DNA of 29,010 bases from a virus: positions 1-29,010 of IMG/VR virus record IMGVR_UViG_3300030329_004017. One strand, given 5' to 3'. A program made the translations under genes and the position numbers. Shown here in pieces: positions 6,738 through 24,741 of the stretch (position 1 is the stretch's first letter; each line of letters starts with the position of its first letter). Under the pieces are notes generated by a model. It saw only the letters and a list, made by a program, of their open reading frames with translations, did no database searches and was not told where the DNA came from.

Positions 6738-6844
6738 ATCGACCACCCAGAAAGGGCTGCCAGGAATAATCCTATAGCAAAGATAGCGACTATGACTGCT
6801 AAACCCAAAAGTTGAATCCTGTCACTCTCATTCAGTTTCTGCAC
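6734..6844 (-). CDS. Single-span membrane protein, 36 aa (GTG start)
   Basis: MQKLNESDRIQLLGLAVIVA then IFAIGLFLAALSGWSI: a charged N-terminus followed by a clear transmembrane helix of about 22 residues that runs almost to the C-terminus. It starts at GTG (6844) after CAGGGGACTTCTAAG and overlaps the end of the previous gene. Small one-span proteins near a holin often act as holin, antiholin or spanin-like accessories. No family recognised. Confidence 0.6.
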   Translation of the reverse strand: MQKLNESDRIQLLGLAVIVAIFAIGLFLAALSGWSI

Positions 6845-7116
6845 CTTAGAAGTCCCCTGAATAGCCCTCTACGCTCTCGATTGAATAGACGCCTGATTAT
6901 ACCTTCAGAACGAAAAAGGCCCTTGGATTCGCTCTCAGAAGCTGCTTTTTTCTGTTGTTGACTCTGCTTTGGCTTCTCAGGCTCTTTGGGCGTCTCTTCG
7001 TTCATGAAATCGTACTTAGCCAAGATGGCTGACTTACCTGGGATTTTCTTAGGTGTATCAGCCATGTGGTCGTACGGGTTAGCTGTCAGTACTACTAGCA
7101 GAATCAGTGATTCCAT
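6832..7116 (-). CDS. Hypothetical protein with short hydrophobic N-terminus, 94 aa
   Basis: I start at 7116 (MESLILLVVLTANPYDHMAD), with GGAGACTGAAG just upstream; the longer in-frame reading would overlap the 7130-7450 gene in a non-coding frame. A hydrophobic start (LILLVVLTA) is followed by a Lys/Pro/Gln/Glu-rich linker and a strongly basic end (GIIRRLFNRERRGLFRGLLR). It could be a small anchored protein with a basic tail. Function unknown. Its last codons overlap the next gene by 13 bases. Confidence 0.6.
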   Translation of the reverse strand: MESLILLVVLTANPYDHMADTPKKIPGKSAILAKYDFMNEETPKEPEKPKQSQQQKKAASESESKGLFRSEGIIRRLFNRERRGLFRGLLRCRN

Positions 7117-7129
7117 CTTCAGTCTCCGA

Positions 7130-7450
7130 TTACATGTGTGATATCTCGTCTTTAATTTTGGCGTGCTCCACGTTGAGCCTATCCCAGAGAAGCTGCATAA
7201 CCTCTTCAATAACTGGAACCAAATGTTTTCCACCGATGTAATCATTCTCCACCTTGACTGTCCCGGTAGGAAACCCAGCAGCCATGCCAATACGCATAGT
7301 CACATCAAACCCATCGCGGGTGGCTACCGCTATTCCGTCTAATACTCGCTTAACCTCCATCTCCCTGTGGTTTATCCGTTCAGCTTCTTTGATTCGGTCA
7401 TCTAACTCAGCTCGTTCTTTCTTCAGTCTTTCTACTAGTCCGTGATCCAT
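7130..7450 (-). CDS. Hypothetical coiled-coil protein, 106 aa
   Basis: MDHGLVERLKKERAELDDRI and KEAERINHREMEVKRVLDGI predict a long helical coil over the first ~40 residues. A compact region GMAAGFPTGTVKVENDYIGG and a C-terminal helix follow. Start at 7450 with GAGG upstream, nine bases after the protease stop; a TTG at 7462 is a weaker alternative. No family recognised. Being coupled to the protease, it could be a partner or inhibitor, which is speculation. Confidence 0.65.
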   Translation of the reverse strand: MDHGLVERLKKERAELDDRIKEAERINHREMEVKRVLDGIAVATRDGFDVTMRIGMAAGFPTGTVKVENDYIGGKHLVPVIEEVMQLLWDRLNVEHAKIKDEISHM

Positions 7451-7458
7451 ATCAGCCC

Positions 7459-8511
7459 TCAAATGTGCAAGTAGGAAATGTCTCTACGGTTGATACCGTC
7501 TACACGACTAATCAACCAACTACCTCTAGCGTTCAACATTCTTCCAGCCACTCTATCTGTTACCCAGAATGAACCCACTGGTTGGTCTAGATAGGTAGGT
7601 CCACTGATCCAATCGCCCCAGCTGTTCTGAATGAGAAACAGCCTCTCGCCATAGTGCTTATAGGCTTCGTTGTCCTCGTCATCGATGCAGCCAATGAAGG
7701 TCATGGCATGTGACCAGCTACCCCTAGGACGAGCTACACCGAATCTACCGCGGTCAGAATTGAAACCGTAGTCACTACAGACTGCTACGCCGTATCCGTT
7801 GCCAATGGCATCACAGAGCTCATCAGTATTGGTGATGAGTGCAACGTGCTTAGATTTGTTTTTGGCTGCTATTTTGTTGAGCCATCCTGGCGTGCCTCTT
7901 CTGCCCCAATTGTGTCCAGTGCGCGAATTGTAAGACGATAAATCCTCGCTGTTACTACCAGATGAGTAATCGCCACGAACCAGAAAACCCCCTGGCCCAT
8001 CATCTGAGACGTATCCACAGAGGTCACTGCAACTAGCCCCCTGCCCTCCATGTCCGCGCCAGCCGTAGATGTTTTCAGTAGCAAGCCTGCCCTTGTAATC
8101 AGTTTCGCCGAATGCAGCATCAATACAGTAGTCAAGCATACCGCTGTTGCGAGTAGCGTGACTAACACAATCGCCCGTTGTCTGTGGTTCATAGCCACCA
8201 AACTCCGGCTCTAGTTGAAGTACTGCTTTGTAGGGCAAGCTGATTTTGCCCCTGCCTGTCTTCTCTAGATGGATAGCAACCTGACCAAACAGGAAGCCTC
8301 CTTGCTTCGCTGTAAGGCTAGAGCAAAGAGAAGCGAACTTCTCTGGGTTTCTAACGCTTCCTACCGCTTTGACAAGATGCCCATTTTCATCATAGCCACC
8401 CTGTGAATACAGTCTGACTAAGTCTTCGGGTTTAGGCGCTTCATCTTTGAATTCATGCCAAGCACCTAATGATCCGTGGTCATATTCATTAGATGTGATC
8501 GTATTCGTCAC
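7459..8511 (-). CDS. Papain-like (peptidase family C1) cysteine protease
   Basis: 350 aa. The papain catalytic plan is complete and in order: Gln110-TTGD-Cys115-VSHA (oxyanion Gln and nucleophile), SWSHAMTFIG with His268, and IQNSWGDW with Asn296. Family C1 enzymes hydrolyse peptide bonds. The ~100 residues before the nucleophile could act as a propeptide or targeting domain. No signal peptide is visible, so export would need the holin or another route. GTG start at 8511 with AGGA eight bases upstream; it overlaps the previous gene by 23 bases. No lysozyme, amidase or transglycosylase was recognised nearby, so it may be the lytic enzyme or a tail/host protease. Confidence 0.88.
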   Translation of the reverse strand: MTNTITSNEYDHGSLGAWHEFKDEAPKPEDLVRLYSQGGYDENGHLVKAVGSVRNPEKFASLCSSLTAKQGGFLFGQVAIHLEKTGRGKISLPYKAVLQLEPEFGGYEPQTTGDCVSHATRNSGMLDYCIDAAFGETDYKGRLATENIYGWRGHGGQGASCSDLCGYVSDDGPGGFLVRGDYSSGSNSEDLSSYNSRTGHNWGRRGTPGWLNKIAAKNKSKHVALITNTDELCDAIGNGYGVAVCSDYGFNSDRGRFGVARPRGSWSHAMTFIGCIDDEDNEAYKHYGERLFLIQNSWGDWISGPTYLDQPVGSFWVTDRVAGRMLNARGSWLISRVDGINRRDISYLHI

Positions 8512-8926
8512 TATCGAAATCCTGACTCAAGTTGACGATGTCAGTCTCTTCCATCGAGCTTGTTTGCTCTAACACTGATTCGGCTAATAGCTCAGGCTCT
8601 CGCGCCCATCGTCCGAACCTTTGAGTACTACAGCTAGAGCAGAATTCCCTGGCACGTGACTCCACAACATTCCTGGTACGTCGTCGCCTACGCTTAGAAG
8701 TGCGGGCCAATCTGCTTCTATCACAGTCTTCAAACGCTTCTAGAAGAAACTTGATTAGCTGAAAGATGATGTCCACCGAACCTGATAGATCGCGTGCTGA
8801 ATACCCTGGTTCATCACCACCGTTTTCGATGTGCTGGTCAACAGCAGAAGTTGCGGCTTTTACATCATCGAATGATGCCCCTGTAACTTTTGCAGCCACA
8901 GTTGCACAAAACGTTTTGCTATCCAT
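8489..8926 (-). CDS. Hypothetical protein, 145 aa, with basic cluster
   Basis: N-terminal helix-rich half (MDSKTFCATVAAKVTGASFD, VDIIFQLIKFLLEAFEDC), then a very basic segment (RTSKRRRRRTRNV) and a Cys/Arg stretch FCSSCSTQRFG, ending in an acidic tail (SQDFDSDEYDHI). No family recognised. It overlaps the protease start, so the two are translated together. The charged halves might pair with DNA, membrane or each other, but no role can be assigned. Confidence 0.65.
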   Translation of the reverse strand: MDSKTFCATVAAKVTGASFDDVKAATSAVDQHIENGGDEPGYSARDLSGSVDIIFQLIKFLLEAFEDCDRSRLARTSKRRRRRTRNVVESRAREFCSSCSTQRFGRWAREPELLAESVLEQTSSMEETDIVNLSQDFDSDEYDHI

Positions 8927-8936
8927 CTTCTACCTC

Positions 8937-9704
8937 CTATTTAACGGCTTTTAGGCCAGTTGCTAATTCCTGCCATGCTGTCTGATGGTCCTGTAGAGAC
9001 TTACCTTTGAGCACCTTTCCAAGCTGACCAGCTAACGGAGTAAAGAACTCCGTGCGCATCTTCGTTCTAGCTGGGTCTTGGAATAGCTCACGCATTGCCT
9101 TAGCGGTTTCCTTGTTGAGCTCTGATACGCTCTTGATTCCACCTGCTGCCACTGCTGCTGCTTTTGATGTGTAGACACTAGCAATCTTCTTAGCGGCGTC
9201 AGAATCGATGCTAGGTGCATTAACGGCTAAGTCGTAGGCAAACTTGGCAAGCTTGTATTTACCATCAGGAAGATTCACTGGCTTAGGTGGTGTTGGCTTT
9301 GGTCCTGGTGTTGGAATAACCGGCCCTTTACCACCTATCGTGATTTCAACAGCGCCCTCTTTTGTGGTCACTGTCTTGGCATCGAAGTCCACATAGATAG
9401 CAACTACTTTGACTGTGTATTTACCAGCCTTACCACGTATCTCTACTACGTTCCCTTTTTCGTCTGCGCTAACGCCTGCAGGAATAGCCCAGACGTATTT
9501 GATAGCTCCACCTGGAGCAGTGATACGCGCGAATGTCTGCACGTTCATTGATAGCCCAGTTGATACCTTTGGCTGTTGGGCTACTACTTTCCTCGGTTCA
9601 TTGATAGCCCTCAGAAAGAGAGCATCAACACCATAGAGGACGACAAGAGCTACCGCCAACGGCGCGCAAAACCTTGTGAGGAAGTTTGCAATCTTCGTCT
9701 TCAT
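8937..9704 (-). CDS. Membrane-anchored protein with Ig-like domain
   Basis: 255 aa. A positively charged start, then one hydrophobic helix (RFCAPLAVALVVLYGVDALF, about residues 12-31), placing the rest outside the membrane. Residues about 50-130 have Ig/PKD-like beta strands (YVWAIPAGVSADEKGNVVEI, GKYTVKVVAIYVDF). A proline linker VIPTPGPKPTPPKP follows, then an Ala/Lys-rich helical C-terminal domain. This domain plan is familiar from planctomycete genomes and their phages, with no known function. Next to the holin-like gene and upstream of the protease, it may help disrupt or modify the envelope. Overlaps the holin-like stop by ATGA. Confidence 0.7.
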   Translation of the reverse strand: MKTKIANFLTRFCAPLAVALVVLYGVDALFLRAINEPRKVVAQQPKVSTGLSMNVQTFARITAPGGAIKYVWAIPAGVSADEKGNVVEIRGKAGKYTVKVVAIYVDFDAKTVTTKEGAVEITIGGKGPVIPTPGPKPTPPKPVNLPDGKYKLAKFAYDLAVNAPSIDSDAAKKIASVYTSKAAAVAAGGIKSVSELNKETAKAMRELFQDPARTKMRTEFFTPLAGQLGKVLKGKSLQDHQTAWQELATGLKAVK

Positions 9705-9892
9705 TGTTGATTCATCTTGGCTAAACCGCGTGAAATTGTATAACCGCCACCAACTAAGCCAGCAGCAATTAACGCAAGCAGTTTAGGCCAAGGGTCATCA
9801 ACAGAACCCAGCAATCCAGAAGAGGCTATTGAAGCCAATACAAGCGAAATAACAGTCACCCAGAATTCCGTCGTTTTCCATCCCGGTTTCAT
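9701..9892 (-). CDS. Holin-like protein, two transmembrane segments
   Basis: 63 aa: WKTTEFWVTVISLVLASIAS (TM1), a short loop with SVDDPWP, LLALIAAGLVGGGYTISRGL (TM2) and a short Lys/Gln tail. Size and topology fit small phage holins, which pore the inner membrane at the end of infection. The W-T-E-F-W start with two helices is common in phages of this kind. The gene precedes the anchored Ig-like protein and the protease, as expected of a lysis cassette. Confidence 0.7.
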   Translation of the reverse strand: MKPGWKTTEFWVTVISLVLASIASSGLLGSVDDPWPKLLALIAAGLVGGGYTISRGLAKMNQQ

Positions 9893-21917: not shown

Positions 21918-22427
21918 TTACCGATTCAGTGCGACGAGCTCATCAAGTCCGTCATCAATTCTTCGCGTACGGATGTATTCATCTTCGGTCGTACCACTGT
22001 TGGTGTAGTACGCCTGATTTTCCTTGTACTCGTCAACGTACTTCTGGTTCTCGTTGACAGGTTCAGGGTCAGCGCCACCATCATCAGGGACGGCCCTTCT
22101 TTGTTGCTTCAGGATGTTGGTGATGGCGTCTTGAGTGCCTTCAAGAGTGAAGTCATTATCGATGAATGACTTTCGGTGCTTGTCATCGACATTAGCCATC
22201 TCACAGAGCGCGGTAATCTGCTTCTGTCGAGTCTTCTCAGAAACTCGAACAGCGTCATCGTCAACATTGACCGGCTCATCAACTTCAACTTCTGGCTCTT
22301 CTTCTGGTGTAGGCTCTTCTGCCTTGAAGAAGTTTTCAACCACCCAATTCTGGGCTTCATCGTCTGAGATATCCGAAGGCATCCCAGCAGCCACAAATTT
22401 GGCCTTAAGACTTTCGTTAAGTGCCAT
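21918..22427 (-). CDS. Scaffold protein from an internal start (Nu3-like)
   Basis: An in-frame ATG at 22427 inside the protease gene is preceded by GGGAGGTGATCCG, one of the strongest ribosome sites in the window. It would yield a 169-aa protein: MALNESLKAKFVAAGMPSDI, a Glu/Pro-rich acidic stretch, then helices (TRQKQITALCEMANVDDKHR) and a charged C-terminus. Lambda makes scaffold Nu3 in the same way from within protease gene C. Acidic, helical and removable by the protease, it fits a scaffold. Expression from the internal site is inferred from the ribosome site. Confidence 0.7.
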   Translation of the reverse strand: MALNESLKAKFVAAGMPSDISDDEAQNWVVENFFKAEEPTPEEEPEVEVDEPVNVDDDAVRVSEKTRQKQITALCEMANVDDKHRKSFIDNDFTLEGTQDAITNILKQQRRAVPDDGGADPEPVNENQKYVDEYKENQAYYTNSGTTEDEYIRTRRIDDGLDELVALNR

Positions 22428-23108
22428 CGGATCACCTCCCTTTGGCTCTTCCTCGTCGGGTAAATACCGCTCAGCTGCCGCGAATGGCAAAGAACGGTTT
22501 GGGATGTTCACAAATCCCATTGATTTAAAGTTGCTGCGCGTCTTGCCTTCAACAATCTCATCAATGAACCCGGCATCTAGAGCAGATTCAGCTGTGAACC
22601 ACGTTTCGTCAGCCATCCATTCCTTCAGGTCATCGAGAGCTATATCAGTGCGCTTCGCGTAGGTGTTTGCTATTTGGTCGCGTTGGGTGTCTAAAACTTC
22701 CGCTTCCTTGCGCAAGTCTTCCGCGGTCCCCGCCATGAAAACACGCGGATCGTGGATCATGAAATCGGCATTCTCAGCCATCCTGATGGTGTCGCCGGCC
22801 ATAGCGATAAAGGATGCTGAACTAAGGGCGATACCTTCAATCAGAACATCAACTTCCGCGGGATGGTGGACCAGTGCGTTATAGATGGCCTTACCGTCTG
22901 AAATCAGACCGCCTTCGCTATTGATTCTCACATTGATTCGCTTGGCGCTCTTGGTGTTCTTCAGGTCCGTTGCAAAGTCAGCCGCGCTGATGCCTTCACC
23001 GAAGAAACCACCACCGATGACACCATAGATGAGCACATCAACCTCTTTGCCCTTCTGGTTGATGATGTAGTGACCGTCTTTAGCGTCTGTTTGTTTGGTG
23101 TAGTTCAT
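21918..23108 (-). CDS. Prohead protease, ClpP/S14-like, fused to scaffold
   Basis: 396 aa. A ClpP-fold serine protease domain over about residues 20-205: INSEGGLISDG, the nucleophile segment GIALSSASFIAMAGD (Ser96 by alignment) and FMIHDPRVF (His119). It cleaves scaffold and capsid during head maturation. Residues 228-396 are the scaffold part, also made separately. I start at 23108, just after the portal stop; an upstream GTG at 23180 adds a basic 24-aa extension within the portal frame and lacks support. Order portal-protease-scaffold-decoration-capsid matches lambda B-C-Nu3-D-E. Confidence 0.88.
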   Translation of the reverse strand: MNYTKQTDAKDGHYIINQKGKEVDVLIYGVIGGGFFGEGISAADFATDLKNTKSAKRINVRINSEGGLISDGKAIYNALVHHPAEVDVLIEGIALSSASFIAMAGDTIRMAENADFMIHDPRVFMAGTAEDLRKEAEVLDTQRDQIANTYAKRTDIALDDLKEWMADETWFTAESALDAGFIDEIVEGKTRSNFKSMGFVNIPNRSLPFAAAERYLPDEEEPKGGDPMALNESLKAKFVAAGMPSDISDDEAQNWVVENFFKAEEPTPEEEPEVEVDEPVNVDDDAVRVSEKTRQKQITALCEMANVDDKHRKSFIDNDFTLEGTQDAITNILKQQRRAVPDDGGADPEPVNENQKYVDEYKENQAYYTNSGTTEDEYIRTRRIDDGLDELVALNR

Positions 23109-23112
23109 TCGT

Positions 23113-24741
23113 TCAAGCCACCGCTTCTTCCTCTGCCTGATTTTCGACGCTTTGTCTTGCCGCTTTGTCATTGACATCACCTATGATTAGCTGGATATCA
23201 ACACCCATCTCTTCAGCAAGCTCTTTAGCTCGCTCAATCTCTTTCGCCCGTGCCTCTATTTTCTGTAACCGCTCTTCGGTTCGTCTTTCCCTGACCTCGT
23301 CGTAGTCATGTCCGCGGGCTGCTAAGACATCCGTTTCGGTTGACATATTTCCTTCAACGGCCTTGATATCAGCGTCTACTTCTTTGACTGGGTCAACCCA
23401 GGGCCAACCTGGAGCAATCCACGCATGCCGCTGGAATTCTGCTCGGTTCTCTTCGTAGTCTACAGGGTCAATGTCAATGACTCCGGTTGCGACACAGTCA
23501 TCTAGAAATTGCTTGTAGACACGGGACCAACAGTCATCTATGGCTTCCTGTTGCCATCTACCGAAGAACTGACGACCGTCGATAAGAGAAAGCCGGCCTG
23601 AGCTGTAGTTTGTTCGGCTGTAGTCTTTGACCAACATTTCAAAGGGGTAGCCCAATCCCGCGGCTACTGCTCTCAGGTGCCATTCCATGTATGGCCCTAG
23701 GGTGTTTCCTGGTCGGTCAGCGCCGCCAAAGGTTACGTCTTGGCCTTCACCCAGATACTGGATGAGCCCAGGCGATAGTTCTTCTAGTCGGTCTGTGGTG
23801 CTACCGCTTGCGCGAGCTCCATCAGCTATGGCTAGCGGGTCACCATCGGTCCTGATGAATGCTGAGAAGCAAGCTGCAACTTGTTCGCCGATTAGGTGCG
23901 CTTCTGAGAAGTCTTTGAGGTCTTTAAGCAGTGTTAGCACTGGTGCCAGCCAAGGTACACCGCGGGACTGACCTGGGAGAAGTTCGCTATAGCTGTGACA
24001 TACTCGCTCGGCTTCTACCTCCATCCATTGGAATGATGTGTCTATATCGTCTTCAGGATGACTAGTGCGGATGAAGTAGTCGGTTGGTTCGCCCCACTTG
24101 TCGAAGCGTATACCAAGTCTAAGGTTCTTTTTTTCGGTTTGATTCGGCGGCGTTTCCAGTCGTCTGGGATGCATAATCTGCAAATGCAGAGGTACAATCC
24201 CATCCTCACGCGCTGATAGAACCGCGATTCCTTCACCGTAGATGGCCTTCGATTGTTCGTACAGCCTCTGCTTATCGTAGAGCCGCTGCTCATCGGCCCA
24301 GATTCGCATTACAGCGTCTATACGCTCGTTGAGTGCTCTGGCCTCTGATTCGTCTAAAACACCGTCTATGGCCCTCACACGAGCTTGTGGGCGAATTCCT
24401 CTACCAACGACGTTAGAAACACGACCGTTGACGGCAGATGCAGCGAAAGCATCCTTCCTGAACATGTCCTCACAGTTGACGACTAGGTCTTCCCAGTCTT
24501 CCGTAAGCTGGGAATTGGGGGCTAGTCTAGAAGCAAGCCACTTAGAGCCCCTGAGGCGGTCTGTGCTGTCCGCGCCTTCGTACGCCCTGTTTTCACGTCT
24601 GACTACTCTCTCAGCACGTTCTAGGGCTAATTCTGAAGCTTTGGCGCGTCGTCTATAGCGATCCCTCGATTCCTTACGCCTAGAACCCCAGGCAGGGAAG
24701 ATAGAGTAAATCGCGTTGTCGATTCGTTCGCCTAGACTCAT
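23113..24741 (-). CDS. Portal protein, lambda gpB family
   Basis: 542 aa. Typical lambda-family features: YRRRAKASELALERAERV and RRENRAYEGADSTDRLRG, then VNCEDMFRKDAFAASAVNGR, VVGRGIRPQAR, RVCHSYSELLPGQSRGVPWL and the C-terminal DYSRTNYSSGRLSLIDGRQF. Twelve copies form the vertex channel through which DNA is packaged and the tail attached. It overlaps the gpW-like stop by ATGA. The C-terminus is acidic and helical (QSVENQAEEEAVA). Start at 24741 fits. Confidence 0.93.
   Translation of the reverse strand: MSLGERIDNAIYSIFPAWGSRRKESRDRYRRRAKASELALERAERVVRRENRAYEGADSTDRLRGSKWLASRLAPNSQLTEDWEDLVVNCEDMFRKDAFAASAVNGRVSNVVGRGIRPQARVRAIDGVLDESEARALNERIDAVMRIWADEQRLYDKQRLYEQSKAIYGEGIAVLSAREDGIVPLHLQIMHPRRLETPPNQTEKKNLRLGIRFDKWGEPTDYFIRTSHPEDDIDTSFQWMEVEAERVCHSYSELLPGQSRGVPWLAPVLTLLKDLKDFSEAHLIGEQVAACFSAFIRTDGDPLAIADGARASGSTTDRLEELSPGLIQYLGEGQDVTFGGADRPGNTLGPYMEWHLRAVAAGLGYPFEMLVKDYSRTNYSSGRLSLIDGRQFFGRWQQEAIDDCWSRVYKQFLDDCVATGVIDIDPVDYEENRAEFQRHAWIAPGWPWVDPVKEVDADIKAVEGNMSTETDVLAARGHDYDEVRERRTEERLQKIEARAKEIERAKELAEEMGVDIQLIIGDVNDKAARQSVENQAEEEAVA

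Follow-up and report, generated by a model that had tools for sequence, protein, structure and literature searches.

The export routes of endolysins interchange around a constant catalytic core, so that the same kind of enzyme may carry no signal, a signal anchor or a secretion signal. Viral cysteine peptidases that serve for a wall other than murein are also known, namely the pseudomurein endoisopeptidases PeiW and PeiP of methanogen viruses. Among the papers listed by our literature search, none dealt with the enzymes by which planctomycete phages lyse their hosts.

The planctomycete wall itself is unusual. Cysteine-rich YTV proteins are present in planctomycete wall preparations, and most Planctomycetales are described as being without peptidoglycan synthesis genes (part of PMC8567305). 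In Planctopirus limnophila, most peptidoglycan genes are dispensable, and a planctomycete-restricted group among its essential proteins includes a YTV domain protein, with wall rigidity through cysteine as the suggested role (excerpt of PMC10632474). Lysozyme attacks the cells of four tested planctomycete strains and the isolated peptidoglycan sacculi of two (excerpt of PMC4432640), so a peptidoglycan enzyme would work on those strains.

Here, we analyzed a linear virus record from IMG/VR with a length of 29,010 bases (termed the window, i.e. the whole stretch of DNA at its full length). A sequence-only reading had pointed to a papain-like protease that might take the place of an endolysin in this virus. 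We compared the gene, its predicted structure and its neighborhood with those of its relatives in viral contigs and in genomes.

Gene block around the protease

The genes considered here, together with the structural and replication blocks, are all located on the minus strand. Along the direction of transcription, the record encodes a terminase, a portal, a ClpP-like prohead protease, a Mu-like major capsid protein, tail genes, a block of small genes that includes the protease, and replication genes; the tail genes and some of the replication genes were identified by eye. The small genes follow one another in the order listed in Table 1. At three junctions, adjacent genes share 4, 23, and 4 nt, respectively, and strong Shine-Dalgarno sites are found at several of the genes, so the block, including the protease, probably forms a single operon.

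Table 1 Features of the window, in the order of transcription.
Feature	Position	Strand	Basis
ClpP-like prohead protease	21918..23180	-	CLP_protease, E 4.1e-32, in Pfam scan of window proteins; ORF placed by eye
Small holin-like membrane protein of 63 aa with two hydrophobic segments (starting near residues 10 and 36); strong Shine-Dalgarno; 4-nt overlap with next gene	9701..9892	-	Hydropathy
Membrane-anchored protein, 255 aa: hydrophobic helix at the N terminus, then an Ig/PKD-like beta domain and a helical domain at the C terminus	8937..9704	-	Weak Pfam match, alignment, poor model
145-aa protein: hydrophobic/amphipathic segment, then basic stretch; 23-nt overlap with protease start	8489..8926	-	Neighbor comparison
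Papain-like (C1A-fold) protease, 350 aa, no signal peptide, GTG start	7459..8511	-	Alignment, AlphaFold2 model, fold comparison
110-aa protein, role unassigned; start overlaps protease stop by 4 nt	7130..7462	-	ORF list
94-aa protein, hydrophobic start, basic C-terminal tail, good Shine-Dalgarno	6832..7116	-	By-eye likeness to the small gene that follows the protease in L004, L005, and L030

The earlier reading had placed a holin-like gene and a membrane-anchored Ig-like protein upstream of the protease, and both are present, with the label "holin" standing for size, hydropathy, and place only. The 63-residue protein matched no Pfam or PHROG holin family; it matched phrog_22388, a "membrane protein" (E 0.0012), and it clusters with genes of loci L066 and L091 that are located four places upstream of their proteases. 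A small membrane protein gene, recognized by hydropathy and not by family match, thus shares the probable operon with the protease. The anchored protein can be aligned with those encoded next to the protease in L001, L004, L005, L007, L102, and L111; its PKD_6 match is weak (E 0.017), and the beta-strands of its poor model (pLDDT 63) are usable as a hint only. The 145-residue protein, placed partly by eye, resembles protease neighbors in L001, L004, and other loci at only 12-18% identity.

Elsewhere in the window, the Pfam scan identified an ArdA antirestriction protein and GP88 (185-700 and 779-1777, ORFs placed by eye). The left end of the record (1-128) is an array of 8-bp units (CCACGGAG-like), and a small ORF at 2367-2732 contains 60-nt direct repeats.

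Catalytic residues and predicted fold of the protease

The residues Gln110, Cys115, His268, and Asn296 of a papain-family enzyme occur exactly at the positions claimed for them in the sequence-only reading, which had not given the strand; counted from the start at 8511 on the minus strand, their codons occupy 8184-8182, 8169-8167, 7710-7708, and 7626-7624, respectively. The oxyanion Gln is thus followed by Cys, His, and Asn in the C1A order. The frame is not a chance one, as it was open in 0 of 2000 shuffles. We found relatives at 31-55% identity, and all four catalytic residues are kept in an alignment of six of them. Among 151 unique relatives, Cys115 is invariant (151/151) and Gln110 is Q in 148, while His268 is H in all 149 that have letters at that column and Asn296 is N in 146 of 149, the other three having Q.

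The AlphaFold2 model, built with 40 sequences, has a pLDDT of 87 and a pTM of 0.86. Its best match among solved structures is xylellain (3ois; Z 20.8, rmsd 2.9 over 236 residues), and procathepsins come next (Z 17-19). At the sequence level, the protease gave no significant match in Pfam, PHROG, or PDB. It matched no Pfam family, the Peptidase_C1 profile included, and this profile matched nothing in the record; among the relatives, L070 and L007 matched it below the cut-off and L010 above it. We therefore treat the protein as a divergent papain-fold protease and do not file it as a member of Pfam C1. The model and the conserved residues together place the gene product in a divergent family of papain-fold proteases, with proteolysis as its predicted activity.

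We also considered a capsid maturation protease and rejected it: the ClpP-like protease sits by the portal and capsid genes, and the papain-like gene is 13 kb away.

Family size, host range, and wall type

A profile search yielded at least 559 relatives among at least 599 matching viral-contig stretches, 80 of which were taken, and a second profile yielded at least 574 relatives among at least 599. With tblastn, the window protein and three relatives found none in 50,697 phage records; the outlier L010 matched one unannotated phage record. In viral contigs, a search with the window terminase gave no relatives. Our sample comprised 185 records (184 loci and the window), and our own gene calls recovered the protease ORF in 171 of them, corresponding to 151 unique proteins and to 91 after clustering at 80%.

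In the genome collection, 11 of the 15 MAGs with the protease family belong to Planctomycetota; the rest are SAR202, Lokiarchaeota, Flavobacteriales, and Anaerolinea. The window's closest kin in this collection are in the SAR202, Lokiarchaeota, and Flavobacteriales MAGs (40-43%), and planctomycete MAGs come next (35%). The family members in non-planctomycete MAGs are possibly mis-binned viral contigs. Members from these MAGs are L088, L097 (SAR202 MAG), L089, L090 (Lokiarchaeota MAG), L091, and L103, either mis-binned or from other hosts.

Strong profile matches (E below 1e-15) were found in 14 of 392 Planctomycetota genomes versus 1 of 395 Bacteroidota genomes, each count including its centre, and the single Bacteroidota match being that centre, the seed itself; leaving the centres aside, the counts are 13/391 and 0/394 (p 1e-4). 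Weak matches (E 1e-3 to 1e-8) were counted as other papains and left out, which removed 9 of 23 Planctomycetota genomes and 15 of 16 Bacteroidota genomes that had any match. Partial matches to the profile were seen in planctomycete chromosomes, e.g. in G312, G338, G058, and others. Contigs of 0.9 to 7.8 Mb carry several of the strong matches, and some of these matches adjoin genes that by eye are terminase-like or tape-measure-like, which points to prophages. It is through its protease family alone that we infer the window virus to belong among planctomycete viruses.

The carriers share a wall component. The YTV domain (PF07639) was found in all 14 protease-carrying Planctomycetota genomes versus 3 of 66 genomes without the protease, one of the three being marginal (p 5e-13); these 66 came from the top of the list of genomes that the protease profile did not match, with the weak matchers G058 and G110 left out, and are not clade-matched. 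As both traits occur in one class, the link between YTV and the protease may reflect shared ancestry, in part or whole.

Search for classical lysins

The sequence-only reading had recognized no peptidoglycan hydrolase in the window, and Pfam scans of 40 window ORFs likewise revealed none. Above the curated cut-offs, Amidase_2 was found in 0 of 26 relative records and 0 of 14 more (the window being covered by the Pfam scan rather than by this genome search), Phage_lysozyme in 0 of 27 records including the window and 0 of 14 more, and Amidase_3, NlpC/P60, and M15_3 in 0 of 27 each, with one sub-threshold NlpC/P60 in the record of L004. M23 was above its cut-off in 0 of 34 virus records, with one sub-threshold match; it was matched in two host MAGs. 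For 121 cassette neighbors, no peptidoglycan hydrolase was present among the 25 Pfam families listed, of 39 in all. As a control, 27 random virus records of at least 35 kb gave one Amidase_2 and three lysozymes, i.e. 4/27 versus 0/41 family records (p 0.02). Because random records score in only 4 of 27 cases and records may be incomplete, the absence of lysins is weak evidence, and we dropped it as a decisive argument after this control.

These counts bear on two alternative roles. In one, the protease would be an auxiliary envelope enzyme, either spanin-like or removing an outer layer, and an unrecognized or unsequenced endolysin would do the main work. The linear 29-kb record and the low rate of lysin detection even in random records leave room for such an endolysin, but no lysin family exceeded its cut-off in any relative virus record, several of which are longer than 120 kb; we regard this role as rather unlikely, though to be taken seriously.

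In the other, the protein would be a true endolysin, i.e. a papain-fold peptidase that cuts the stem peptides of peptidoglycan after release by a holin. There are precedents, as papain-fold NlpC/P60 and CHAP enzymes cut peptidoglycan. A papain-family N5 domain is described in mycobacteriophage LysA (excerpt of PMC3314691), and some planctomycetes possess lysozyme-sensitive peptidoglycan (excerpt of PMC4432640). However, the nearest folds of the window protein are C1A enzymes that cut proteins, the Pfam scan found no wall-binding domain in it, NlpC/P60 stayed under its cut-off in every one of the 27 records, and all 14 carrier genomes encode YTV walls. We consider a true endolysin improbable.

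Neighboring genes across the family

Clusters of recurring neighbors were derived from the first 104 loci. Two of them contain small hydrophobic proteins, one of about 72 residues immediately upstream of the protease in 26 loci (cluster 11) and one of about 60 residues, two or three genes downstream, in 34 loci (cluster 9). Anchored or lipoprotein-like proteins are present in 145 copies across 85 loci (cluster 0), and proteins that combine an amphipathic segment with a basic tail, resembling the 145-residue protein of the window, occur in 40 loci (cluster 7). In the 91 dereplicated loci, small membrane-protein genes made up 148 of 770 near genes versus 40 of 640 far genes, i.e. genes farther out in the same loci (p 3e-13), and N-terminal hydrophobic segments were encoded by 248 of 770 near genes versus 56 of 640 far genes (p 3e-28).

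Several other neighbors were observed. Cluster 8 (34 loci; e.g. L019:9165-9764), two places upstream of the protease, has a membrane segment and a region that looks PAS-like by eye, with no Pfam match. In L105, L224 (6521-7624), and L227 (10333-11586), the upstream gene seemingly fuses a holin-like hydrophobic part with a long exported part. Exported trypsin-like proteins are encoded in the protease cassettes of L178 (11245-12117; Trypsin_2, E 4.6e-13) and L004 (8198-8908; E 5.7e-4, below the cut-off), so some cassettes contain more than one protease. L004 also carries a gene that appears permuted-papain-like by eye, with no Pfam match.

A gene with a thioredoxin motif lies within eight genes of the protease in 37 of 151 loci versus 0 of 1181 same-strand genes farther out; after dereplication, the motif was found in 22 of 770 near genes and in 0 of 640 far genes (p 2e-6). 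Most of these genes are immediately downstream of the protease and encode a hydrophobic start. Three of four tested thioredoxins were above the Pfam cut-off (E 4.5e-12, 2.8e-9, and 1.3e-7) and the fourth was below it, and thioredoxin was the commonest Pfam family among the 121 cassette neighbors, a few of which were hand-picked. The window lacks the motif, and so do the protease neighborhoods of its nearest relatives, L001, L003, and L005. Exported downstream neighbors (e.g. L052:10924-11496) also repeatedly show a cysteine motif, CDGSGWITHGDGHKTECPGC, which by eye looks like a zinc ribbon or DnaJ; proteins with this motif are often fused to thioredoxin, and they occur within eight genes of the protease in 46 of 151 loci, with one case farther out.

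Export modes

By N-terminal type, the 151 unique relatives comprise 113 with no signal, 20 with a membrane anchor, 14 with a Tat signal, and 4 partial sequences. In the tree, the Tat members form a single clade and the anchored members need two changes; the window falls in a no-signal clade of 43 rows, together with members from Planctomycetaceae and Pirellulaceae MAGs. A small membrane gene is nearby in 54 of 61 dereplicated no-signal members versus 5 of 15 anchored ones, as expected if no-signal members need a holin, but the loci of the anchored type are shorter, which biases the comparison and makes it only suggestive. Thioredoxin accompanies 15 of 61 no-signal, 6 of 13 Tat, and 0 of 15 anchored dereplicated loci; it was found with anchored members on the large planctomycete contigs L194, L195, and L196 (the last seen in part).

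Export would also suit an enzyme that alters the host surface and so serves superinfection exclusion or host takeover, with no lysis of the cell. The export signals, the lipoprotein-like partners, and glycosyltransferases nearby agree with such a function, but the protease sits among holin-like genes in many viruses, and we judge it quite improbable. The least probable role, that of a virion or entry protease digesting the envelope at infection, has in its favor that the protease directly follows the tail genes in the window, but Tat or anchor signals in 34 of 151 relatives are odd for a virion protein assembled in the cytoplasm, export routes that swap around a constant core are hard to square with one, and the membrane-protein neighbors are constant.

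A putative lysis protease for a protein-walled host

Taken together, the evidence suggests, as its simplest account, a lysis protease for a protein-walled host, associated in many family members with a disulfide reductase. We favor, with some confidence but well short of certainty, a lysis-cassette protease that cuts an envelope protein of planctomycetes, in place of an endolysin or assisting one. The papain-fold cysteine protease would be made in the cytoplasm as the enzyme of the lysis cassette, and the neighboring holin-like protein would release it; in other family members, the protease would export itself by its Tat signal or N-terminal anchor. Once released, it would cleave a structural envelope protein. 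The likeliest target is the cysteine-rich wall layer, with YTV proteins as candidates for it, and this cutting of wall protein may replace or assist an endolysin in lysis. Where an exported thioredoxin is present, as in other members, it would either weaken the disulfide cross-linking or maintain the catalytic cysteine in its reduced state.

A more far-reaching form of this proposal is that planctomycete viruses lyse their hosts by reductive proteolysis, with thioredoxin opening the disulfides of the YTV wall, the protease cutting it, a holin, Tat signal, or anchor giving access, and peptidoglycan hydrolysis being unneeded. We put it forward tentatively, as a possibility that we would not yet bet on. 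The sequence-only reading, in which a protease could be the main or auxiliary lytic enzyme for planctomycetes, gains from the membrane-gene neighborhood, the export signals, the thioredoxins, the planctomycete prophages, and the cysteine-rich walls, while lysis, the substrate, the status as sole enzyme, and the host of the window are parts of it that we still infer.

If lysis by protease and thioredoxin is confirmed, some phages would lyse cells and leave peptidoglycan unattacked, in a manner used by hundreds of uncultured virus records. It would also provide independent evidence on the load-bearing layer of planctomycete cells, which has been debated for decades, and enzymes for dissecting the planctomycete wall. 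The link between the protease and the YTV wall makes the proposal directly testable in cultured hosts with these prophages.

Comparison with known systems

Xylellain (3ois) and the other enzymes of family C1A, i.e. papain and the cathepsins, share with the window protein the papain fold over 236 residues and the Gln, Cys, His, and Asn residues in order. Unlike them, the window protein, which is 15% identical, does not match Pfam Peptidase_C1 and is encoded in a phage neighborhood of the lysis type.

The locus resembles a canonical holin-endolysin cassette in that a gene for a small membrane protein lies upstream and is read in the same direction, and the family resembles endolysins in its range of export modes (none, anchor, or secretion signal). 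It differs from such a cassette in that the enzyme is a papain-like protease with no match to a known peptidoglycan hydrolase family, in that many family members are accompanied by an exported thioredoxin, and in that no spanin was recognized. PeiW and PeiP differ from the papain-like protease in belonging to a transglutaminase-like family and in acting on another wall polymer. Mycobacteriophage LysA, as described in part of PMC3314691, is similar in that a papain-family domain, N5, is found within a phage lysis enzyme, whereas N5 is a single domain within a peptidoglycan hydrolase that has several domains and includes wall-binding parts.
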